DNA from: Burkholderiales bacterium
GTDB taxonomy: Bacteria; Pseudomonadota; Gammaproteobacteria; Burkholderiales; JAEUOS01
Length of the DNA: 64,000 bases
NCBI GenBank assembly: GCA_947473125.1
Contig: CANJDH010000009.1
Coordinates: 1 to 64,000 of the forward strand
Direction: 5' to 3'
Shown here: positions 42,933 through 61,316 of the stretch, one piece after another
How the letters are laid out: the number at the start of each line of letters is the position of its first letter
How positions within the stretch are numbered: the first letter of the stretch is position 1
Notes under the pieces: model-generated
Told to the model about the DNA's origin: nothing
Database searches by the model: none
The model's input: only the letters and a program-made list of their open reading frames with translations
Position numbers and translations under genes: made by a program

Positions 42933-42944
42933 TTGGGGCCGCCC

Positions 42945-44123
42945 ATGAAGCGCGCGTTGCAGGGCCGTTATGTCAAGGTTGCCACGGCGGGCGAGGCCTT
43001 CCAGGCCTTTGTGCCGGCGCCGTTGCCGCCCAAGCCCGCCATCGACTGGACCCCCGCCCTGCGCGCGCGTTTTGACGCGGCGCTGGTCGAACTCGGCCGC
43101 CTCGACACCGTGACCGACTTGCTGCCCAACGTGCAACTGGTGCTCTACAGCTTTGTGCGCAAGGAGGCGGTGTTTTCGTCGATGATCGAAGGCACCCAAT
43201 CCTCGCTGGCCGACCTGATGTTGTTCGAACTCGACGAGCAGCCCGGCGTGCCGGTCGAAGATGCCCGCGAAGTGAGCCGCTATGTGGGCGCACTGGAGCA
43301 TGGCCTCGCCCGCCTGCGCGGCGGGTTTCCGCTGTCGCTGCGCTTGCTGCGCGAGGTGCATAAGGTGCTGCTTGGTGGTGGGACGGGCGGCGGGCGCGGC
43401 GCCAGGCTCACCCCCGGCGAGTTTCGCCGCAGCCAGGTGTGGATCGGCGGCACCCGCCCCGGCAATGCCGCCTTCGTGCCGCCCCCGGTCAACGAGCTTG
43501 ACGACTGCCTCAAGCACCTTGAACGATTCCTGCATGACGAACCGGCCGCCACCAGCCCGCTTGTCAAGGCGGCGCTGGCACATGTGCAGTTCGAGACCAT
43601 CCACCCGTTCCTCGATGGCAACGGGCGCGTCGGCCGGCTGCTCATTGCCCTGCAACTCGCGGCCGACGGCCTGATGCGCCAACCGCTGCTCTACCTCAGC
43701 CTCTATTTCAAGCAGCATCAGCAAACCTATTACGCGCTGCTCAACGCGGTGCGCGAAAAGGGTGATTGGGAAACCTGGCTCGAATTCTTTGCCGACGCCG
43801 TGGTGGCCAGCGCCGCGCAGGCTGCCGACTCGGCCAAGCGCCTGCTCGCACTCGCCACCGAAGATGCCCGGCGCATCGCCGGCCTGGGCCGGGCCGCGGT
43901 GTCTGCCGCTGCGATCCACCAGGCGCTGCAACAGCAGCCGCTTGCCACGGCCGCCTCGCTAGCGGCAAGCACGGGTTTGAGCGCAGCCACCGTCAACAAA
44001 TCGCTCGCGCACCTGGGGCAACTGGGCATCGTCGCCGAGCTGACCCGCAAGCAGCGCGGGCGGGTGTTCAGCTATGCGCGCTACGCCGAGATTCTCAGTG
44101 AGGGGATGGAGTTGCCGGAGTAA
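42945..44123 (+). CDS. Fic family AMPylase with N-terminal inhibitory helix and C-terminal winged helix
   Basis: A 392-residue Fic protein. The inhibitory motif SSMIEG at residues 78-83 (S-x-x-x-E-G) makes it a class II, self-inhibited enzyme. The catalytic loop HPFLDGNGRVGR begins at His220 with everything needed for nucleotidyl transfer from ATP to a target hydroxyl. The C-terminal part (TAASLAASTGLSAATVNKSLAHLGQLGIV) is a winged helix-turn-helix, so it may bind the two palindromes upstream and control its own gene. ATG 42945 is preferred over TTG 42933. It opens the defence/toxin island. Confidence 0.88.
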   Translation: MKRALQGRYVKVATAGEAFQAFVPAPLPPKPAIDWTPALRARFDAALVELGRLDTVTDLLPNVQLVLYSFVRKEAVFSSMIEGTQSSLADLMLFELDEQPGVPVEDAREVSRYVGALEHGLARLRGGFPLSLRLLREVHKVLLGGGTGGGRGARLTPGEFRRSQVWIGGTRPGNAAFVPPPVNELDDCLKHLERFLHDEPAATSPLVKAALAHVQFETIHPFLDGNGRVGRLLIALQLAADGLMRQPLLYLSLYFKQHQQTYYALLNAVREKGDWETWLEFFADAVVASAAQAADSAKRLLALATEDARRIAGLGRAAVSAAAIHQALQQQPLATAASLAASTGLSAATVNKSLAHLGQLGIVAELTRKQRGRVFSYARYAEILSEGMELPE

Positions 44124-45514: not shown

Positions 45515-47101
45515 ATGGCCACCAAAGCCACCAAGAAGAATAGCGACAGCACCGCCAACCTCGGCTTCGAAGCCAAGCTCTGGCTCACCGCCGACAAGCT
45601 GCGCAACAACATGGACGCTGCCGAGTACAAGCACGTCGTCCTCGGCCTCATCTTCCTCAAATACATCTCCGACACGTTCGAGGAACACCGCGCCAAACTC
45701 CTTGAAGCCAAAGGCGACTACGCCGGTGCCAACGCCGAAGACCCCGACGAATACAAAGCCGAAAACGTCTTCTGGGTGCCGGCAGATGCGCGCTGGTCGC
45801 ACCTGCAGGCCAGCGCCAAGCAGCCCACTATCGGCAAGACCGTGGACGACGCCATGGTCGCCATCGAGCGCGACAACCCGCGCCTCAAAGGCGTGCTCCC
45901 CAAAGACTACGCCCGCCCCGGCCTCGACAAGCAGCGCCTCGGCGAACTGATCGACCTCATCGCCACCATCAGCCTCACGGCGGCCAGCGAAGGCGAAAAG
46001 ACCCACCGTTCCGTCGACCTGCTCGGCCGTGTCTACGAATACTTCCTCACCCGCTTCGCCAGCGCTGAGGGCAAAAACGGCGGCCAGTTCTACACCCCGT
46101 CGTGCGTGGTGCGCTGCCTGGTCGAAATGCTCAGCCCCTACAAAGGCCGCATCTACGACCCCGCCTGCGGCTCAGGTGGCATGTTTGTTCAGTCTGAAAA
46201 GTTCGTCGAATCGCACGGCGGCAAGCGCGGCGACATCAGCATCTACGGCCAGGAAAGCAACTCCACCACGCGCCGCCTCGCCGTGATGAACCTGGCACTG
46301 CGCGGCATCGAAGCCGACTTCGGCCCCGAGCACGCCGACACCTTCCGCCGCGATCTGCATCCCGACCTGCGCGCTGACTACGTCCTCGCCAACCCACCCT
46401 TCAACGACTCCGACTGGTTCCGCAAAGACGACGACGTACGCTGGCAATACGGTGTGCCGCCCAAAGGCAACGCCAATTTTGCGTGGGTGCAGCACTTCAT
46501 CCACCACCTCGCCCCGGCCGGCTTCGCGGGTTTTGTGCTGGCCAATGGCAGCATGTCGTCCAACCAATCCGGCGAAGGCGACATCCGCAAAGCCATCATC
46601 GAAGCCGACCTCGTGGACTGCATGGTCGCGCTGCCCGGCCAGCTCTTCTACAGCACGCAAATACCGGTCTGCCTCTGGTTCCTCACAAAGAGCAAGAATG
46701 CCGACACCAAACGCGGCTTCCGCGACCGCCGCAAACAAACTCTCTTCATCGATGCGCGCAAACTCGGCACCCTCATCGACCGCGTGCACCGCGAGCTCAC
46801 CGATGAAGACCTCACGAAAATCACCACGGCTTACCACGCCTGGCGTGGAGAAAAAACCGCAGGCAACTACGAAGACGTCGCCGGCTTCTGCAAATCCGCC
46901 ACCACCGCGGAAATTGCTACGCACGGCCACGTGCTAACACCCGGTCGCTATGTCGGCGCAAAAGAAGTCGAAGATGACGGCGATCCTTTTAAGGAAAAAA
47001 TGCCGCGCCTCGTCGCCGAATTGCACGCGCAGTTTGCAGAGTCCTCCAACCTAGAGCGGCTCATCAAACAACGTCTCGCAGGCTTCGGCTATGGAAGTTG
47101 A
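45515..47101 (+). CDS. hsdM: type I restriction-modification methyltransferase subunit
   Basis: A 528-residue N6-adenine methyltransferase: helical N-terminal domain ([39 protein letters not shown]), SAM motif [14 protein letters not shown] and catalytic motif [13 protein letters not shown]. It methylates the host target sequence and, with HsdR and HsdS, forms the restriction complex. It starts the island operon; hsdS overlaps its last 11 bp. This length and N-terminus fit the short HsdM class common in proteobacteria. Confidence 0.96.
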
Positions 47102-48404
47102 AGAAATCCCATTTACCGAGCTGCTATCAAAGATAGTGGATAACCGTGGGCGCACTTGTCCGACGGCTGAGACGGGACTTCCTCTAATAGCAACAAACTG
47201 CGTTCGCAATGACCTGTTGTATCCGGCCTTCGATAAGGTCCGCTACGTGTCTCCGGATACTTACGAAAATTGGTTTCGAGGGCATCCGGCTCCTGGTGAT
47301 TTGATCTTTGTTTGCAAAGGCACGCCCGGACGCATCTGTATGACGCCAGACCCAGTAAGTTTTTGCATCGCACAGGACATGGTCGCAGTACGCGCAGATT
47401 CGAAGAAAGTTTATCCAAAGTATCTGTTCGCGGTGCTACGGTCATCACAGGTGCAAGCGCAGATCGGCAACATGCATGTTGGATCACTAATTCCGCACTT
47501 TAAGAAAGGCGATTTCGATAAGCTGCTTTTGCCTGTTCCCGACAAGAAGACCCAGGTAGCTATCGGCGACACTTACTTCGAAATGTGCGCCAAAATCGAG
47601 TTGAACCGGCGGATGAACGCGACACTGGAGGCGATGGCGCGAGCGCTGTTCCAGAGCTGGTTCGTGGATTTCGACCCCGTCCGTGCCAAGCTCGACGGTC
47701 GGCAACCTCATGGTCTTGATGCCGCCACAGCCGCTCTCTTCCCTGGCCAATTTCAAGACTCTCCGATTGGCCCTGTTCCACAAGGCTGGAAAGTAGAAAG
47801 ATTCGACGCCCACATCACCGCAGACCGTGGACTGAGCTACAAAGGTGAAGGATTGCGCGACGACCAAAGCGGTCTGCCGATGCACAATCTCAACTCGATA
47901 TACGAGGGCGGTGGCTACAAGCACGAGGGCCTCAAGTATTACGCTGGCGAATATCGCGAGAAGCACTTGCTACATCCGGGCGACATGATTGTCACCAATA
48001 CAGAGCAAGGCTTTGATCACTTGCTCATCGGCCACGCCGCTATTGTCCCGGGGTGCTATGGCCCGAAGGGCATATATAGCCATCACATTTATCGCGTCCG
48101 GCACAAGCCTTCGTCGCCATTCAGCGCGCACTACCTCGTCGAGCTATTCAACAATCGTCGCTGGCATTACTGGATTAGCGGCTTCTCCAATGGCACCACC
48201 ATCAATATGCTGCCGATGGATGCCCTTGAAATGCCGCTGCTGGTCGTTCCGCCCGTGGAACTTGTGAAGAAATTCACTGCATTGGCAGAGGCCGTGCACT
48301 TGCAGGTCGAAGACAACAAACAGCAATCCAGTACCCTCGCGACCCTGCGCGATACGCTGCTGCCAAAGTTACTTAGCGGACAGCTCTCAACTGAAAGAGT
48401 CTAG
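47091..48404 (+). CDS. hsdS: type I restriction-modification specificity subunit
   Basis: A 437-residue HsdS with two target-recognition domains separated by the conserved helical spacer ([32 protein letters not shown] near residue 170) and a second at the C-terminus ([19 protein letters not shown]). It determines the bipartite DNA site. It has lower-GC, more A-rich codon use than neighbouring genes, as usual for recombining TRDs. It is 5 bp from the next gene. Confidence 0.93.
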
Positions 48405-50345: not shown

Positions 50346-51395
50346 ATGAGTGAGGCGCCATTGCACAAATCGGAAATCATCCTCTACCAAACAGAGGATG
50401 GGCGGACGCGTATTGAATGCCGATTTGAGGACGAGACGATGTGGCTCACGCAAGCCCAAATTGCGGAGTTGTTTCAAACCACGCCTCAGAACGTGACGTT
50501 GCATTTGAAAGCGATCTTCGCTGAGGGCGAATTGCCAGAGGAGGCAACTTGTAAGGATTACTTACAAGTTCGATCTGAGGGTAATCGCGAGGTTTCGCGG
50601 AATCTGCGTCACTATCGGTTGGAGGCGATCCTTGCCGTCGGCTTCCGCGTGCGCAGCCTGCGCGGCACGCAGTTCCGGCAGTGGGCTACCGCGCGTTTGG
50701 GCGAGTACCTGGTGAAGGGTTTCACCATGGACGACGAGCGGCTGAAGAGTCCGCCGGGCAAGGGGCAGCAGGATTACTTCGATGAGTTGCTGGAGCGCAT
50801 CCGCGATATCCGGTCGTCGGAGCGGCGCTTTTATCAGAAGGTGCTGGATATTTACGCGACGAGTGTGGATTACACGGCGGATGCGGAGGTGGCGCAGCAG
50901 TTTTTCGCTACGGTGCAAAACAAGATGCATTGGGCCACGCACGGCCAGACCGCTGCCGAGGTAATCCATGCGCGGGCGGATGCGGGCAAGCCTTTCATGG
51001 GCATGCTCTCCACGCGGCCCGGCGGCATTGTGCGCAAGGATGATGCGGCCATCGCCAAGAACTACCTCTCCGAAGACGAGTTGCAGGTGTTGAACCGCAT
51101 CGTGACGCTTTACATCGAATACGCGGAGTTGCAGGCGCTGGAGCGCAAGCCGATGACGATGCGGGATTGGACTGTCAAGCTGGATGATTTTTTGCGCGCT
51201 GCCGGGCGCCGGCTGCTTGATCACGCGGGCGCTGTGTCCGCCGAGTCGGCCAAGGCGAAGGCTGAGGCGGAATATGCGCGTTATCGGGCAGCGCTGGATG
51301 CGCAGCCGCGTGCGGTGGATGCCGAGTTTGAGAAGGTGGCGAAGCAGATTCAAAAATTGCCAACGCCGAAGAAGGCCAAACGATTGAAGCCATGA
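50346..51395 (+). CDS. RhuM family protein
   Basis: A 349-residue RhuM-type protein: N-terminal winged-helix part (MWLTQAQIAELFQTTPQNVTLHLKAIFAEGEL), the diagnostic YRLEAILAVGFRVRSLRGTQFRQWAT, then a helical C-terminal domain. RhuM genes are frequently found inside type I restriction loci; their function is unsettled. Its TGA overlaps the ATG of a decayed hsdR 5' copy, which preserves the ancestral rhuM-hsdR junction. Confidence 0.87.
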   Translation: MSEAPLHKSEIILYQTEDGRTRIECRFEDETMWLTQAQIAELFQTTPQNVTLHLKAIFAEGELPEEATCKDYLQVRSEGNREVSRNLRHYRLEAILAVGFRVRSLRGTQFRQWATARLGEYLVKGFTMDDERLKSPPGKGQQDYFDELLERIRDIRSSERRFYQKVLDIYATSVDYTADAEVAQQFFATVQNKMHWATHGQTAAEVIHARADAGKPFMGMLSTRPGGIVRKDDAAIAKNYLSEDELQVLNRIVTLYIEYAELQALERKPMTMRDWTVKLDDFLRAAGRRLLDHAGAVSAESAKAKAEAEYARYRAALDAQPRAVDAEFEKVAKQIQKLPTPKKAKRLKP

Positions 51396-51511
51396 GCCTT
51401 AGCGAAGCCATCGTTGAAGACGCCGCGCTCTCGTGGTTCGGGGAGTTGGGTTATGCCATCGGCCACGGGCCGATGGCAGCATTCGGAAGGGGTGAGCACC
51501 ACTGTTGTTGA
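51392..51511 (+). pseudogene. decayed 5' end of hsdR (39 codons)
   Basis: ATG at 51392 opens [20 protein letters not shown], nearly the same as the intact hsdR start at 54056 ([20 protein letters not shown]) and highly similar at DNA level for about 85 bp, with weaker similarity to about 51500. It ends in TGA at 51509-51511. It overlaps rhuM in ATGA. It marks where hsdR originally began before the cargo was inserted. Confidence 0.85.
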
Positions 51512-51605
51512 TCCCGCCAAATGTCCTGCCAATTTGGCGGGATAGGAGACCTTTAAAGCGGGGATTTCTACTGTTCTGCCAAATATCCTGCCAAACTGGC
51601 AGGAT
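51511..51605. repeat. tripartite repeat array A (2 units, 62-bp period)
   Basis: Unit 1 (51511-51543): ATCCCGCCA, 3 bp, GTCCTGCCA, 3 bp, TGGCGGGAT. Unit 2 (51573-51605): GTTCTGCCA, 3 bp, ATCCTGCCA, 3 bp, TGGCAGGAT. The gap is 29 bp. It begins at the last base of the hsdR-remnant stop codon. The non-coding stretch 51512-51969 holds arrays A and B and an AGGGCCG/CGGCCCT hairpin near 51657-51681. Confidence 0.85.
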
Positions 51606-51780
51606 ATTGCAGGAAATGCGATGCATATTGGGTGAATCAGGCCGCCAGAAATGGCTAGGGCCGCCCTGCGGGACGGCCCTGTTACTCCTTCAACGCATGG
51701 TTGATTAGTTGATGCAAGGTTCGCAGGATTCGATGTTTCCGTCAAGGTCGAACATGACAACGCCCTCCAAATCCAGAGGA

Positions 51781-51913
51781 ATCCCGACAATAATCCCGAC
51801 AAAATGTCGGGATTCGCGTATCAAATCTGCGCAAAACGTCCGATCCCGACATGAATCGCGACATGATGTCGCGATGCGAGGCGTCTGCTTCAGCCCGCCC
51901 GGTTCTTGCGACA
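51781..51913. repeat. tripartite repeat array B (2 full units and a decaying third)
   Basis: Unit 3 (51781-51813): ATCCCGACA twice then TGTCGGGAT. Unit 4 (51843-51875): ATCCCGACA, ATCGCGACA, TGTCGCGAT. A third start, CTTGCGACA, is at 51905, again 62 bp on, but its other half-sites are lost. A 16-bp palindrome GTCCGGT-GA-ACCGGAC (51946-51961) follows. Confidence 0.85.
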
Positions 51914-51969
51914 TGGAAGCACGTAGTGAACCTGATTGACATTTTGTCCGGTGAACCGGACTACGCCAA

Positions 51970-52326
51970 ATGAGCAAAAACAAATCCACTCCGCACGGAA
52001 GCGCCAAGAAGAACGCAGCGGCTTCCGTGGTCCGCTCGTCGGCGGCGGAATACTTCACCTTTGTGGCTGCCAGCGGTAAGGGTGGCGTGGAGGCCGTTTA
52101 CGCCGATGAGAATGTTTGGCTAACGCAGAAAATGATGGGGCTGCTCTACGCTGTGGAAACCCACACCGTGAATTACCACCTCAAAAAGGTCTTCGACGAC
52201 GGCGAATTGGAGGCGGGTTCAGTTATTCGAAATTTTCGAATAACTGCCGCCGACGGCAAGAGCTACGCCACGCAGCAAAATGGGCACGGCCAATATGACC
52301 ATGATGATCGCTATCATCAACACTGA
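51970..52326 (+). pseudogene. truncated RhuM-like N-terminal fragment
   Basis: 118 codons. Residues 40-95 (VYADENVWLTQKMMGLLYAVETHTVNYHLKKVFDDGELEAGSVIRNFRITAADGKSYAT) match the start of RhuM proteins. The frame then runs into QQNGHGQYDHDDRYHQH and stops, so the core GxRVxSxRGTQFRxWA region is missing. It is a remnant of a second rhuM gene carried with the cargo. It might still make a short DNA-binding protein. Confidence 0.7.
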
Positions 52327-52344
52327 TTAACCGCACCGGTGGCT

Positions 52345-53844
52345 ATGGCAACGAAGACCAAACTCGATCCGCGCAGGATGATGCTCAAATCCATCCAGGT
52401 GATGAAGGCATCCATCAATGAGCCGCGTGCTGACGGCAAGGCGAGCCCTTTGGTTGGTGCGGTTCTGGTGAAGCCGGATGGGGTGGTGGACTCGGCGTTT
52501 CGTGGAGAACTGCGCCATGGTGACCATGCGGAGTACACGTTGCTGGAGCGCAAGCACCGGGATGAACGGCTGGATGGGTCGGTGCTGTTTGCGACGCTGG
52601 AGCCATGTGCACCGGGAGCGCGGAAGCATCCGAAGCTGGCGTGCGCCGAGCGGATCGTGAATGCGCGGATCGCCGAAGTGTGGGTGGGCATCGAGGATCC
52701 TGATCCGCTGGTGGACCGGCAGGGCATCCGCTATCTGGAACAAAACGGTGTCAAAGTGCATTTGTTCGATCTTGATTTGCAGGATGAGATACGTGCGGCA
52801 AATAAGGTGTTCATCGCACAAGCCCTGAAGCGGGCGGCTGAAGCCAAAGATGGGAAGTCGGCCCAGCCATCGCCGCTTTCACAATGGGATAAGGCGCTGC
52901 CCGGTGTGACCGTGACTGATTTGGCGTCAGACGCTCTCACCCGCTATCGCGAGCAAACGAAGATTTCGGACAAGACAAATTCAGCCGGATTTCTGCAACG
53001 GTTGGAGCGTCAGGGGTTGCTCGGCCGGCGGGGATCAAAGCTGGTGCCAGCGGGATTCGGGTTTTTGCTTTTCGGCAAAGCACCGCGCGAGATTCTGCAT
53101 CACGCCGGGCTCAACGCGACGATCGAGTACCCCGATGGCACGCACGAGATTCAAAATTTCGATGGCCCGACGATCCTGATTCCGGATCGGGTGGAGGCGT
53201 GGTTACGCCCGAAGTTGCGGAACGTGATTGACCGGAGCCGGATGACGCGGGCGGAACGGCCGGCCCTGCCATTCGATCTGGTGCGCGAGGCGGTGATTAA
53301 CGCGCTGGTGCATCGTGATTACGACCTGACTGGCGCCACCTGCCATTTGGTGGTGACGGTGGACACGGTCACGGTGCGCAGCCCCGGCGCGCCGCTGCTC
53401 CCCGTCACCATGGCGCAGATGCAGGATTTCACCGCGCCTATGTATAACCGGAACCCCAAGCTGCAGTTTGCGTTCGGCGGAACAAAGCTGGTCGAAGGAC
53501 GCGGGTTTGGAATGCGGACGCTTGGAGAGGCGGCCGCGAAGCATGGCCTGCCGATGCCGAAGTACACGTTCGATGGGCTGTATCTGAACCTGACGATTTA
53601 TCGGGATGCCAAGGCGGCGGTCAGTGGATTGAAAGCCGGCGTGTTGAAGGCACTGAACGACGACGAGAAGAAAAGCTGGGAATATCTGGCCACCAAAACC
53701 TCCGTTACGCGCAAGGAGTATGCGGAGCGCCTTGGGTTTGATGCCCGAAAGGCACAGCGCCACCTCAAGCGTTTCGTCGAATTGGGACTGCTGCGCAAGG
53801 TGGGCGCGAGCTCCTCAACGGAATACGAAGTGCGCAAATCATGA
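52345..53844 (+). CDS. RibD-like deaminase domain fused to GHKL (RecG/AlbA_2-type) ATPase and winged helix
   Basis: A 499-residue fusion. Residues about 12-155 form a CDA-fold deaminase of the RibD type: the zinc/proton-shuttle HAE at 61-63, the zinc cysteines in LEPC (Cys88) and Cys100, and the RibD-like [26 protein letters not shown]. The Cys spacing (11 residues) is longer than in RibD. Residues about 190-420 resemble the HATPase_c_4 region of AlbA_2/RecG-like proteins, with the N-box [13 protein letters not shown] (314-326) and [28 protein letters not shown]-terminal winged helix ends the protein. GTG 52339 is an alternative start. Repeat array C begins on its stop codon. I infer a nucleotide- or nucleic-acid-sensing defence role. 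Confidence 0.72.
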
Positions 53845-54055
53845 TCGCGACAGTTCTCACGACACTCTGTCGCGAGGCGAAATTTCCGCTTCCGCCAGCC
53901 CGGTTCTCGCGACAATTCTCGCGACAAAGTGTCGCGAGCGACGGCGTGCCCAATCGGGCAATCCCGACAATAATCCCGACAAAATGTCGGGATTCGCACC
54001 TCAATGCGGGACCAAACGCCGAATCCCGACAGGAATCGCAACATCTCCTGAAACC
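53844..54055. repeat. tripartite repeat array C (3 full units and a truncated fourth)
   Basis: Unit 5 (53844-53876): ATCGCGACA, CTCACGACA, TGTCGCGAG. Unit 6 (53906-53938): CTCGCGACA twice, TGTCGCGAG. Unit 7 (53961-53993): identical to unit 3. Unit 8 (54023-54055): ATCCCGACA, ATCGCAACA, third arm absent because hsdR starts at 54056. Units 5-6 and 7-8 each have the 62-bp period; 6-7 is 55. Confidence 0.88.
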
Positions 54056-57000
54056 ATGAGCTTCAACGAATCCATCGTCGAAGACGCCGCGCTCTCGTGG
54101 TTCGGTGAGCTGGGCTATGCCATCGGCCACGGGCCAGAGATGGCGCCGGGTGAGCCGGCGGCGGAGCGGGATTCGTTTGGTGAGGTAGTGTTGTCGGGGC
54201 GCTTACGCGAAGCGATTTCGCGGTTGAACCCGGCGATTCCCGAGGAGGCGCGCGAGGATGCCTTGCGCAAGGTGCTGCGCGTGGGCACGCCTTCGCTTAC
54301 GCAGACCAACCGCGCCTTTCAGCGAATGCTGCGCGATGGTGTGCCGGTGGAATATCCGCGGGCCGATGGCAGCATCGCGGGTGATCATGTGCGGCTCGTC
54401 GATTTCGGCAACGTGGGCGCAAACGATTGGCTGGCGGTGAACCAGTTCACCGTGATCGAGGGGCAGCACAACCGGCGGCCGGACATTGTGGTGTTCCTCA
54501 ACGGGTTGCCGCTGGGCTTGATTGAACTGAAGAACGCGGCCGATGAGGAGGCGACGATCTGGACCGCCTACGCACAGTTGCAGACTTACAAGGCGGAGAT
54601 TGGGTCGCTGTTGCATTACAACGCGGCGCTGGTGGTGAGTGATGGTTTGCAGGCGCGCATTGGGTCGGTAACGGCCAACCAGGAGTGGTTCAAGGTTTGG
54701 CGCACGATTGATGGCGAGGGGGGGTTGCCAACTGAGGCCCCCAAGAGCGCGCTTGAGCTGGAGGTGCTGGTGCGCGGGGTGTTTGAGCGGCAGCGGTTTC
54801 TTGATCTGCTCCAGCATTTCATTGTCTTTGAAGAGAACCCGGATTCAGGTGAGTTGCACAAGATCATTGCGGGTTACCACCAGTTTCATGCGGTGAATGC
54901 GGCTGTGGAAGAGACGGTGCGGGCCAGTGGCATGCTTGAGAAGAACTTGGCGCGCGAAGAGGTGGGCCGCTATTGGGCGGGGCGGATGCATGGTGGCAAG
55001 CCGGGGGATCGGCGTGCGGGGGTGGTGTGGCATACGCAGGGCAGCGGCAAGAGTTATTCGATGCTGTTTTACGCTGCGCGCGTGGTTCGGCATCCGGCGA
55101 TGCAGAACCCGACTCTCGTCGTGCTGACCGACCGCAACGATCTTGACGACCAGTTATTTGGCCAGTTTCAGCGCTGCCATGAAATTCTGGGTCAGGAGCC
55201 GGTTCAGGCCGGCGGCCGTGAGCATTTGCGCGAGTTGCTGAACCGCGCGAGCGGTGGCGTGGTGTTTACGACCATCCACAAGTTCATGCCTGAAAAAGGT
55301 GAGGTGATGCCCGAGCTGAGCGCGCGGCAGAACATCGTGGTCATCGCCGATGAGGCGCACCGCAGCCAGTATGGGTTTGGCGGCAAGGTCAATGAGAAGA
55401 CGGGCGAGATGTCTTACGGCTTCGCGAGCAATCTGCGCGATGCCTTGCCGAATGCGTCCTTCATCGGTTTTACCGGCACGCCCATCGAGAAAATGGATGC
55501 GAACACGCGGGCGGTGTTTGGTGACTACATTTCGATCTACGACATCCAGCGCGCTGTTGCCGACAAGGCCACGGTGCCGATCTATTACGAGAGCCGCATT
55601 TCCAAGCTGAGCCTGAATGCCGCCGAGTTGCCGAATCTCGATGCGGAGTTCGAGGAGATCACCGAAGGCGAGGAGCTGACCAAGAAAGAGAAGCTCAAGA
55701 CCAAGTGGGCCGCGCTTGAAGCGTTGGTCGGTGATCCCAAACGGGTAGCGCTGATCGCCGCTGACCTGGTGGCGCACTTCGAGAAACGCGTCGAGGCAAT
55801 GGACGGTAAGGCGATGGTCGTTTGCATGAGCCGCCGCATCTGCGTTGACCTCTACAACGCCCTGATTGAGTTACGCCCGGATTGGGCCAGCGCCAAGGAT
55901 GATGATGCCGAAGCCGAAAAGGGCAAAAGCTGCGTGGTCAAAGTTGTGATGACGGGTAGCGCAGACGATGGCCCTGATTGGCAGCCGCACATCCGCAGCA
56001 AGGACAAGCGCCGCAAGCTAGCGAACCGTTTCAAGGATGATCGCGACCCGTTCCGCATTGTGATCGTGCGCGACATGTGGCTCACCGGGTTCGATGCGCC
56101 CTGCCTGCACACCATGTATGCGGACAAGCCGATGCAGGGGCATGGCCTGATGCAGGCGATCGCGCGGGTGAACCGCGTGTTCCGCGACAAGCCCGGCGGC
56201 CTGGTGGTGGATTACCTCGGCTTGGCCGATCAGCTCAAGAAGGCGCTGGCCGTCTACACCGAGAGCGGCGGCAAGGGTGACCCTACTTTCGACACCGCGC
56301 AGGCGGTGGCCGTGATGCTGGAGAAGCACGGTGTCGTCTGCGACATGATGCACGGCTTCGACTGGAGCATGTGGACGACCGGCAAACCGGCGGAACGCCT
56401 GGGCCTGATCCCGGCCGGGCAGGAGCATGTGCTCGAACAGGAAGACGGCAAGAAGCGTTTCGTGCAGGTAGTGACTGAACTGTCACGCGCGTTTGCGCTG
56501 TGCGCCGCCAGCGACGAAGCCACCGCCATACGCGATGACGTGAGTTTCTTCCATGCGATCCAGGCGGCACTGAACAAGCAGAGCAGCAACAGCCGCAAAT
56601 CGCCGGAGCAGATTGACGCGGCAATTCGCCAGCTTGTCTCCAAGGCGATCACGACGGAAGGCCAAGTGATCGACGTTTTCACTGCTGCCGGCTTGGCCAA
56701 GCCGGACATCGGCATCCTCTCCGATCAATTCCTTGCTGAGGTGCGCGGCCTCAAGCACAAGAACGTGGCGGCTGAGCTGCTGGAGAAGTTGCTCAAGGAT
56801 GAACTCAAGGTGCGTTCGAAGCGCAACCTGGTGCAGAGCCAGTCGTTTTCCGAGAAGCTCAAGCAAACCCTTAACGCGTATCACAACCGCGCTATCTCGA
56901 CGATGCAGGTGCTGGAGGAATTGATCAACCTCGCCAAGGAGCTTGATGCTGCAACCAAGCGCGGTGAGGAGCTGGGGCTCTCGGACGATGAACTTGCTTT

Positions 57001-57265
57001 CTACGATGCCCTAGCCGCCAACGAGAGTGCCGTCAAAGCCATGGGCAATCAGGAATTGCGCGTGATTGCCGCAGAGCTGGTGACACAAGTGCGCAAGAGC
57101 GTGACCATCGACTGGACCCTTCGCGAAAGCGCCCGCGCCAAGATCAAGGTGATGGTCAAGCGCATTCTCAACAAATACGGCTACCCACCGGATTTGCAGG
57201 AGGAAGCGACCAAGACGGTGTTGGCGCAGGCGGAGTTGTTGTCGGCGTTGTGGGCTGAGGCGTAG
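54056..57265 (+). CDS. hsdR: type I restriction endonuclease subunit
   Basis: A 1069-residue HsdR. The N-terminal nuclease has D143 (RPDIVVF) and E157-x-K159 (LIELKN). The translocase follows with Walker [25 protein letters not shown] ([12 protein letters not shown]), and later helicase motifs FTGTPIEK and [16 protein letters not shown]. The C-terminal helical domain binds HsdM. The ATG at 54056 follows the last repeat arm directly; the open frame upstream is array and cargo sequence. Nothing suggests loss of function, so the R-M system may be active despite the insertion. Confidence 0.95.
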
Positions 57266-57857: not shown

Positions 57858-58967
57858 CTAGAGATCGAACGGGGTCTTTAAGCCGTGCTCCTCGAATACC
57901 AGAGCCAGATCGTCGAGGGTGATGCCCAGCAAAGACGCTGCGCGCCGGGCGGATACATGCCCTTGCTCGATGCCCCATGCAAATACCTCGGCGAAGCGCT
58001 TGCTGAATCGTGCGGGCTGTTCCGCTTCTTCGCTTTGCGGCATGCGGAGGCTGGTGTCGCTGATGCGGTCCGCAACGGCTTTCTTGAGATATCCGAGGGC
58101 AACCAAGCGCCATCTGAGTGCCGAAGCGCTGACAGCGAGTTCAATTGCATGCGGAACTAGCCATTTGGGCAATTGGGCCTCGGCTGGGAGCGGCGTGCGG
58201 GCGATCATGTCGGCAATCGTGGGGCGCGGCATCAGGAGGGCGCCGGCGAAGTTGTCGGCGAGTGTTTCCACGCGCTTTTCCTGCGCGTCCACGGGCTTCG
58301 ACCCTTCAATGTGCCGGGGTGCCATGTCGGCCCAGGTGAGCAGATGAAACAACTCGTGGGCGAGATCAAAGGCGCGGCGCCACGGGGCCTCGTTGCGGTT
58401 GATGAGAATGGTGTTGAGTTGCCCAAGCTGGCATGCAGCACCCGATATGCCCTTGAACGTGTCGACGTGCAGCACAAGGGTGTCGAGATCGTTCTCGAGT
58501 ACGTGCGCGAGTTTCTTCGCGGGGTTGGGGCCCAGCTTCATGGCCCAGGCGATGGCCTCGCCTTCGGCTTGCGCCTCTTCAAACGTGCTTTTTGACGTGA
58601 GCGCAACACGGCGCATCGATGAGTTGACCGGCGTTCCTTTCAGGCGCGAAAGATGTCGATACGCGGCAATCCATTTGCCGGCGCGCACTTCGAATTCATC
58701 AAGCTGCTTGACGCTGGCATTGGTTTGGCGCCACGAAAACCGGCCTTCGCCCGCCAGTTCAAACGGGTCGGTGAAGTAATCGACCGGCACCTTGAAGAAA
58801 TGCGCAGCCTGCACGACCTCATCAGCGGTGACTTTGCGATCACCGAGTTCGATGGCCGAGAGCGTTTGCCTATCCTTGAAGCCCAGTGCCTGGGCCAGTG
58901 CGTCCTGCGTGATTTGGCGTTGCTCGCGCAGCGCCTGCAGACGGGTGCGAATGATCGCGGTGTCCAT
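57858..58967 (-). CDS. Xre-HTH/ImmA-IrrE metallopeptidase regulator
   Basis: A 369-residue COG2856-type protein: N-terminal Cro/Xre helix-turn-helix (LREQRQITQDALAQALGFKDRQTLSAIELGDRKVTADEV), a linker, then the IrrE/ImmA peptidase with AHELFHLLT (HExxH) and the downstream EKRVETLADNFAGALLMP glutamate helix. Such proteins cleave a repressor or partner on a signal. The ATG at 58967 is 19 bp after a strong predicted promoter whose operator halves fit its HTH. It probably controls the PIN gene downstream. Confidence 0.87.
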   Translation of the reverse strand: MDTAIIRTRLQALREQRQITQDALAQALGFKDRQTLSAIELGDRKVTADEVVQAAHFFKVPVDYFTDPFELAGEGRFSWRQTNASVKQLDEFEVRAGKWIAAYRHLSRLKGTPVNSSMRRVALTSKSTFEEAQAEGEAIAWAMKLGPNPAKKLAHVLENDLDTLVLHVDTFKGISGAACQLGQLNTILINRNEAPWRRAFDLAHELFHLLTWADMAPRHIEGSKPVDAQEKRVETLADNFAGALLMPRPTIADMIARTPLPAEAQLPKWLVPHAIELAVSASALRWRLVALGYLKKAVADRISDTSLRMPQSEEAEQPARFSKRFAEVFAWGIEQGHVSARRAASLLGITLDDLALVFEEHGLKTPFDL

Positions 58968-58992
58968 GGGTTTGCCTCTCCAGAGCGTCCGG

Positions 58993-59025
58993 ATTATATT
59001 CTTGCGAAAGTGTAAAATGCAAGAA
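58993..59025 (-). promoter_or_regulatory. promoter and operator of the Xre-ImmA/PIN module
   Basis: Inverted repeat TTCTTGC (58999-59005) and GCAAGAA (59019-59025) with a 13-bp spacer. On the minus strand TTGCAT overlaps the first arm as -35 and TATAAT (58998-58993) follows 18 bp later. Binding would occlude both elements. Confidence 0.65.
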
Positions 59026-59089
59026 ATAATTTGTATCAAATGAAGACGCGTCAAAATGCGGTGTAATTTCACCGATCCCTACAGAACCC

Positions 59090-59838: not shown

Positions 59839-60492
59839 ATGGCCACCTCCCGTTATCTTCCCGCAGGCGCTGAAGCCGAGTTTGAGCCCGGCTCGCGTGG
59901 GCGGGTATTGCGCAACAGTCTTGGCATCCGGCTTGTGCGCGATATCAAGCTTGCTGAATCACAGCGGCTTGGTATCGCCCAGACACAGGCAATCGATCTG
60001 TTCTCAGACACTCATCGCTTCACTCAAGTGGATGTGTGCAATCTGCACCGCCTTTGGCTTGCGCCGGTGTATCCGTGGGCTGGCGAGTTTCGCGGCGTCA
60101 ATCTGGGAAAAGGTGGATTTCAGTTCGCGGCTGCCGCACAGGTTCCGCGATTGATGGCGGAATTCGAGCGCGATGTACTTGGTCGCCTGACGCCATGTTT
60201 ACCCGCGCGGCAGCCAGACGTTGCCAATGCCTTGGCTATCGTGCACGCCGAGTTGATACTGATCCACCCGTTTCGTGAGGGGAATGGCCGCCTCGCGCGT
60301 TTGCTCGCCTTGCTGATGGGTTTGCAGGCTGGCTTGCCACCGCTTAATTTTTCGAGCCTGGACGGAAATGGCAAGCAGCGCTACATCGCGGCCATTCACG
60401 CCGCCGTGGCGCGCGACTATCAACCGTTGTCGGAAATATTTCTGCGGGCTATCAAGCAGACTTGGAAGACGCATTCTTCCAGTAGTCGATAA
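59839..60492 (+). CDS. Fic/DOC family protein (class I, no internal inhibitory helix)
   Basis: A 217-residue Fic protein with the complete loop HPFREGNGR at residues 143-151 and the upstream flap segment PWAGEFRGVNLGKGGFQF. No S/TxxxE(G/N) helix is present in its own sequence, so a separate antitoxin is needed. A small gene on the opposite strand at 60452 encodes such a motif and overlaps the fic 3' end by 41 bp. AMPylation or a related transfer to a host target is predicted. Confidence 0.87.
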   Translation: MATSRYLPAGAEAEFEPGSRGRVLRNSLGIRLVRDIKLAESQRLGIAQTQAIDLFSDTHRFTQVDVCNLHRLWLAPVYPWAGEFRGVNLGKGGFQFAAAAQVPRLMAEFERDVLGRLTPCLPARQPDVANALAIVHAELILIHPFREGNGRLARLLALLMGLQAGLPPLNFSSLDGNGKQRYIAAIHAAVARDYQPLSEIFLRAIKQTWKTHSSSSR

Positions 60493-60716: not shown

Positions 60717-61316
60717 ATGGGATCGATCTATGTGGGCCTGTCCGACGCCCTTTTCACCAAGACACAGCGCAAGCTGCTCGGCTTGCTCTATGGTCATCCG
60801 GATCGCAGCTACTACGCGAACGAAATTGTGCGCCATGCCAAATCCGGCATTGGCTCGGTCCAGCGTGAGCTTGAGCGGCTGACCCAGGTTGGTTTGCTCG
60901 TCGTCGAACCGGTGGGCAACCAGAGGCACTATCGCGCCAACCAGCAGTCCCCTATCTTCAGCGAATTGCGTAGCATTGCACTCAAAACCTTCGGTGTGGC
61001 AGACGTCCTGCGCGAGGCGCTGGCGCCCTTGGCCAAAAAGATTCACCAGTCGTTCGTCTATGGCTCGCTTGCCAAAGGAACCGACACGGCAACGAGCGAC
61101 ATTGACCTGATGATCGTGAGCGATACCCTTACCTATGCCGATGTATTTGGTGCCCTCGAGGCGGCCTCGGCAGACCTGGGGCGCCCCGTCAACCCCACCG
61201 TGTATTCGCCCAGGGAGTGGGCGCGTCGGGTAAAGGGCGACAATGCCTTCGTCACTCGTGTGCTGGCTCAGCCAAAGCTGTGGCTGATAGGGCAGGACAA
61301 TGCCATCCCCACTTGA
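60717..61316 (+). CDS. MNT-type nucleotidyltransferase antitoxin with N-terminal winged helix
   Basis: A 199-residue protein: a winged helix (residues 1-75, KTQRKLLGLLYGHPDRSYYANEIVRHAKSGIGSVQRELERL) and a minimal nucleotidyltransferase with GSLAKGTDTATSDID at 116-130. In MNT-HEPN systems the MNT neutralises the HEPN RNase by nucleotidylation. The HEPN frame downstream, overlapping by 17 bp, is broken, so this gene is an antitoxin without a working toxin, or retained as a regulator. Confidence 0.82.
   Translation: MGSIYVGLSDALFTKTQRKLLGLLYGHPDRSYYANEIVRHAKSGIGSVQRELERLTQVGLLVVEPVGNQRHYRANQQSPIFSELRSIALKTFGVADVLREALAPLAKKIHQSFVYGSLAKGTDTATSDIDLMIVSDTLTYADVFGALEAASADLGRPVNPTVYSPREWARRVKGDNAFVTRVLAQPKLWLIGQDNAIPT

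Follow-up and report, generated by a model that had tools for sequence, protein, structure and literature searches.

Paired 33-bp arrays at a type I restriction-modification locus as candidate docking sites for the winged helix-turn-helix domain of a deaminase-ATPase protein

Between hsdS and hsdR of a type I restriction-modification (R-M) operon in a Burkholderiales bacterium lie arrays of a 33-bp element, and the question they raise is what reads them. We analyzed a 64,000-nucleotide stretch of this genome (the window), in which hsdM and hsdS (45515-48404) are accompanied by rhuM (50346-51395, identified by Pfam), the arrays, and hsdR of the same operon (54056-57265, Pfam and NCBIfam), all of them on the forward strand, as are the elements themselves. 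The original prediction described seven full and two partial elements, each composed of three 9-bp half-sites at 12-bp intervals in direct-direct-inverted (D-D-I) order, and both the coordinates and this plan held at every copy, as did the 62-bp steps within each group. Array 1 consists of elements at 51511-51543 (class CCGCC/CTGCC) and, 62 bp on, 51573-51605 (CTGCC); array 2 has elements at 51781-51813 (CCGAC) and, again after 62 bp, 51843-51875 (CCGAC/GCGAC), with a partial third element of one half-site at 51905-51913. In front of hsdR lie two GCGAC elements, 53844-53876 and, 62 bp past it, 53906-53938, and then, after a step of 55 bp unlike the 62 bp within groups, a CCGAC element at 53961-53993 and, 62 bp past that, a partial CCGAC element of two direct half-sites without the inverted arm (54023-54043), which stops 12 bp short of the hsdR ATG at 54056. 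The arrays at 51511 and 53844 both begin on the final A of a TGA, as had been claimed; the former stop codon (51509-51511) closes an open reading frame that begins at a 5' fragment of hsdR, and the latter closes a gene at 52339-53844. A degenerate pattern for the element matched five of the window copies and nothing in 100 dinucleotide shuffles. Only the GCGAC class, one of three classes among the window elements (GCGAC, CCGAC, and CCGCC/CTGCC), adjoins the stop codon of the 52339-53844 gene, and we infer that 53844-53938 is the array cognate to that gene.

A genome-wide search with a covariance or spaced-motif model had been proposed as a check, and when it was run the plan and a 61-63 bp step recurred in more than 10 phyla. 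The full-element pattern, applied to 84,980 species with a single genome apiece, gave 72 stretches, in which a covariance model found 256 matches with both strands counted; many of these loci contain at least two copies, most commonly spaced 61-63 bp apart. By their record titles the hosts include Verrucomicrobia, Planctomycetes, Betaproteobacteria, Myxococcota, Bacteroidetes/Ignavibacteria, Armatimonadetes, Acidobacteria, Melainabacteria, Chlorobi, Coprothermobacterota, and others, and as they are mostly metagenome-assembled these titles may mislead (the locus titled Klebsiella, L108, encodes proteins 82-89% identical to those of the window). No further copy was found in the rest of the 4.88-Mb source genome, so that the motif is confined to the single hsd locus with its 62-bp period rather than scattered without periodicity. 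In 30 array-bearing genomes, nearly all matches likewise sit in a single array locus, the exceptions being one genome with two array loci (G686) and two with a single extra match each (G673 and G677).

This confinement rules out a dispersed repeat of the REP, BIME, or MITE kind. CRISPR, suggested by the constant 29-bp gaps, was rejected because class varies among the repeats of a single array and because gap sequences are alike between related loci (L149/L164 and L137/L167); no cas gene was present among the window neighbors scanned. No T run follows the window elements as it would in a Rho-independent terminator, and an origin of the 12-bp half-site period in 4-amino acid coding repeats was not supported by the array loci. 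Of 73 viral pattern matches, about 30 come from one phage lineage (L033, L040, L043, L049, L054, and about 25 more), in which one D-D-I element directly follows the ribonucleotide reductase gene and precedes a baseplate-like gene; these look like terminators in which one arm has apparently been duplicated, and they were set aside. Separately, six loci (L123, L133, L136, L139, L142, and L171) carry elsewhere CCCTCACCC-NNN-CCCTCTCCC-NNN-GGGAGAGGG repeats, which have the same 9-3-9-3-9 plan in another sequence. A literature search, with subscription papers outside its reach, found no publication on such arrays.

To ask what accompanies the arrays, we compared the genes on either side. In about 46 of the 72 loci, a relative of the 52339-53844 protein is encoded directly 5' of the array and in its orientation (tblastn and a wHTH HMM); the other 26 or so, without a recognizable upstream wHTH gene, include contig ends, terminator look-alikes, and rhuM-array-hsdR arrangements. 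Among 49 genes with a wHTH of the window-protein type, a D-D-I element follows the stop codon on the same strand, no more than 260 bp away, in 48, a proportion biased by the 44 genes that came from the array pattern, the relatives found blind to arrays (below) being the fair sample; in 13 of the 49 the element begins exactly on the stop codon. Where two elements are present (41 genes), the first two start 62 bp apart in 27 genes, 63 bp apart in four, and 61 bp apart in two (33 of 41 at 61-63 bp). Across loci the gaps between elements are constant in length but not in sequence, suggesting a constraint on spacing along the helix and not a conserved gap. Downstream the partners differ: about 20 loci have hsdR, several have radC, two have a DUF1156 gene (L111 and L129), and three have no codirectional gene at all (L119, L152, and L173). 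With such variation downstream, it is the upstream gene that serves as the constant partner, and the original description of arrays around hsd cargo applies to the many that precede hsdR but not to these others. In L128/L251 the array lies 5' of the gene rather than 3'. The radC-family gene, whose product begins MKTI, stands directly behind the array in L107, L162, and L174 (by Pfam) and in L117, L135, L138, L159, and L160 (by start sequence), and at these loci the nearest element is often of class CGGAC, just before the radC start codon. No elements were found at 30 loci of other HATPase_c_4 genes collected by family.

The gene at 52339-53844 (forward strand) encodes a RibD-like zinc deaminase followed by a COG2865-type middle part with HATPase_c_4 and a C-terminal wHTH, as judged from Pfam, NCBIfam, PDB, alignment, and a structural model. 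The deaminase motifs HAE and PC...C are conserved, and the zinc-site residues His-63, Glu-65, Cys-90, and Cys-102 are invariant in 23 members. The HATPase_c_4 match scores 41.4 bits against a Pfam cut-off of 26, whereas a full bifunctional RibD deaminase/reductase was rejected (NCBIfam RibD 62 bits, cut-off 156), the deaminase part alone matching. Structure and sequence searches led to RibD and to the COG2865 protein DIP2311 (PDB 3lmm), the latter the top Foldseek match. The wHTH occupies residues 436-500 (53644-53838, HMM and model) and its recognition helix 3 residues 469-481 (53743-53781); in the AlphaFold model (mean pLDDT 83), residues 469, 473, and 474 all lie in helix 3. There is no second close wHTH in the source genome. 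Apart from weak matches of pAgo type and other partial ones, PADLOC has no model for the protein. The protein is rare, being present in 2 of 300 genomes of the order of the window and in 3 of 289, 6 of 257, and 3 of 201 genomes of three other groups, seed genomes included, and no relative of it occurs in the plasmid and phage collections. From its context we infer a role in defense, and the combination of RibD-like deaminase, HATPase_c_4, and wHTH is apparently an undescribed family of defense-island proteins. A variant in L154 (1596-3623), accompanied by a CCGCC array, joins the HATPase_c_4-wHTH module to an apparent UvrD-like helicase N terminus in place of the deaminase.

The relation between wHTH and array extends to specificity. 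With the class scored on the first element, that nearest the stop codon, position 7 of the half-site matched the recognition helix at 40 of 40 loci, A occurring with Arg (26/26) and C with Asn (14/14). Finer pairs were CTGCC with YRTAMNH, CCGCC with NRT(A,S)LNH, CCGAC with ERKAQRV, and CGGAC with RTARRH. When all 66 wHTH columns were compared, the three that best predicted the class were 469, 473, and 474 (Ala-469, Gln-473, and Arg-474 in the window protein), and because these residues belong to helix 3 the correspondence suggests recognition rather than linkage. In two relatives (L108 and L116), identity to the window protein is about 90% as far as residue 400 but falls to about 50% in the final 100 residues, and their arrays are of classes CTGCC and CGGAC instead of GCGAC; the wHTH and its array have clearly been exchanged as a unit. 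In a tree built from the protein body, half-site class and helix type each switch six times and do so together in six of six cases (p = 0.031, the lowest value attainable with six pairs). The wHTH's own tree has only about three switches with weak support, and since the wHTH end and the array adjoin, joint transfer may account for part of the co-change.

Seven relatives found by protein alone (L242-L246, L249, and L210) provided the array-blind set. Strict D-D-I pairs with a 62-63 bp step were present in five of the seven, four with the predicted half-site: L242, L243, and L244 (helix PRTAQRH) have ATCGCGACA pairs and L249 (RTARRH) has ATCCGGACA pairs, as the code predicts. The fifth, L245 (KTAQRH), carries the predicted A within a new class, ACTTGGACA. 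The remaining two lack a strict element and have D-D-I arrangements far above shuffled sequence, with a longer loop (step 72) in L246 and without a loop in L210. If the code is true, swapping the helix from AQRH to MNH would shift preference from ATCGCGACA to ATCCTGCCA.

We considered whether the arrays might act through something other than duplex DNA and this wHTH. The inverted arm is Watson-Crick complementary to the two direct arms at 332 of 363 and 399 of 453 variable positions (198 and 231 in shuffles), in elements that were partly selected for pairing. Such strong stems with covariation, in arrays that are codirectional, intergenic, and at times directly before a start codon, could be hairpins in the operon mRNA that govern decay, polarity, or translation of hsdR. 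An RNA stem should, however, favor G·U on its strand, and stem mismatches were G·U or U·G in 20 cases and A·C or C·A in 28. Furthermore, the arms of the L210 array have no loop, the gaps keep length and not sequence, Rfam 15 gave no match at E ≤ 1, no T run is present, and the half-site class follows a helix that recognizes DNA. The structured RNA that the original prediction had offered is accordingly disfavored, and we regard it as very unlikely; a single functional RNA strand likewise gained no support from the Rfam scan, the folds, or the comparison of G·U with A·C. Because G·U is not enriched, the code follows the helix, and the L210 array is loop-less, duplex DNA is the favored form of the site.

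It is also conceivable that array and wHTH are mere co-carried neighbors, the array serving another factor or none and owing its symmetry to template-switch mutation. Adjacency does mean joint transfer, mutation alone can homogenize symmetrical arms, and the test on the wHTH tree is weak, but the best-predicting columns would then be expected anywhere in the linked domain and not in the recognition helix, the 62-bp step is constant though the gaps are unrelated, and the array-blind relatives bore out the predictions, so that we consider mere neighborhood unlikely. A recombination site had also been suggested earlier, and a site-specific recombinase acting on the arrays as integron attC-like marks at the ends of exchangeable cargo would suit the start of arrays on stop codons of unrelated genes (the deaminase gene, and RhuM in L167), the exchange of wHTH and array as a unit, and the hsdR 5' scars that adjoin cargo. 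Direct support was lacking, however: no recombinase gene is a constant neighbor among the minority of neighbors that were annotated, homologous recombination in the protein body and hsdR accounts for the exchange, and the code points to the neighbor's own wHTH, which leaves recombination highly improbable.

Taken together, these data make it quite probable, as judged from sequence, that the arrays are duplex-DNA docking sites for the wHTH of the gene directly upstream. They have the features of an operator array, namely symmetry, fixed helical spacing, and a specificity that tracks the recognition helix. The protein-binding array of the original prediction is strongly supported, and of the binders listed there the winged-helix protein would be the one concerned, not RhuM, HsdS, or Fic. 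Binding of this DNA by the cognate wHTH is very likely, and pairing of the elements in a cooperative manner appears likely. The three half-sites at 12-bp intervals would form one element, and an offset of 62 bp between two elements, about six helical turns, would place the bound subunits on one face for cooperative binding; wHTH and array would move jointly as a specificity module, so that related proteins read different half-sites. The bound protein may control transcription through its own 3' end, by roadblock or autoregulation, holding down expression of its own gene and of the next one, which is often hsdR or radC, until the ATPase/deaminase part relays a signal of infection. The arguments for and against such a regulatory role seem evenly balanced, and control of the downstream gene is weakened because L119, L152, and L173 have no codirectional gene behind the array. 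Alternatively, though we find it doubtful, the array could be an address that tethers a nucleic acid or nucleotide deaminase to its own locus and not a promoter-type operator. Such a store might be released when phage attack disturbs host DNA, or might edit neighboring genes locally, and swappable wHTH-array modules would stop related systems in one cell from cross-reacting. The docking interpretation would link a family, across many phyla, to DNA sites of its own through a readable helix-to-half-site code, with the DNA-reading domain and its sites swapped as a single module on a constant enzyme body; regulation of the family is directly testable, and the code offers a search tool for more members.

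The non-cognate elements of the window fit a history of cargo addition. A copy of the hsdR 5' end (51385-51477, 88% identical) is an apparent scar of cargo addition upstream of hsdR, and a truncated 118-residue open reading frame with the N-terminal HTH part of RhuM (51970-52326) has, in its N-terminal part, 84% DNA identity to L155 4104-4411 (both features on the forward strand). Similar hsdR scars adjoin cargo on its left side in L123 (1468-1530), L139 (5513-5625), L155 (1331-1445 and 3810-3945), and L167 (4305-4352 and 5820-5867), and in L167 each of two rhuM-type genes has an hsdR 5' end behind it, as if cargo modules had been added repeatedly at the hsdR 5' end. The CCGAC elements at 51781 and 53961 (51781 on is 84% identical over 85 bp to 53960-54044) may stem from an L155-like module, because L155 shares the hsdR scar, the RhuM fragment, and a CCGAC array, there behind a gene with helix ERKAQRV; the CCGCC/CTGCC pair at 51511 we would trace to a lost Asn-type gene. 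Both sets are probably relics of earlier modules stacked at the hsdR 5' end, although this idea explains only loosely why non-cognate elements persist beside cognate ones. Other defense-type genes in the window are a SoFic-like Fic gene (42933-44123), an HTH and M78 peptidase gene (RmrA-like, 57858-59072), a second Fic gene (59839-60492), and PDC-M05A (60717-61316).

Several known systems resemble this arrangement in part. PrrC/RloC-type effectors also lodge in hsd operons, and the gene between hsdS and hsdR could similarly guard the R-M system, but PrrC-type effectors are anticodon nucleases whereas the window enzyme is a deaminase, and no array of cognate sites is known to us for PrrC. Fic proteins with an N-terminal wHTH have similar half-sites beside them in L012 (1501-1533 and from 1663 on) and L013 (1501-1571), and such sites may extend to Fic proteins; these loci differ, however, in their weak matches to the wHTH HMM (E of 0.03 and 0.013), irregular arrangement, and absence of a 62-bp pair. 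Ordinary COG2865/HATPase_c_4 proteins such as 3lmm share a related ATPase-type fold, but lack the D-D-I array (30 loci) and the RibD-type deaminase N terminus of the window protein. RptR is a small dedicated repressor whose operator lies in type I R-M defense islands, where TAGCTA palindromes form direct repeats in the promoter (PMC12255303). There, as is predicted here, repeated sites in an R-M defense island are read by the island's regulator (PMC12255303). An RptR-type island was nevertheless rejected for the window, as its half-sites follow the form ATCNNGNCA and are placed 3' of the gene, and in contrast to RptR the predicted binder is a large deaminase-ATPase whose sites are pairs of 33-bp D-D-I elements at 62 bp.
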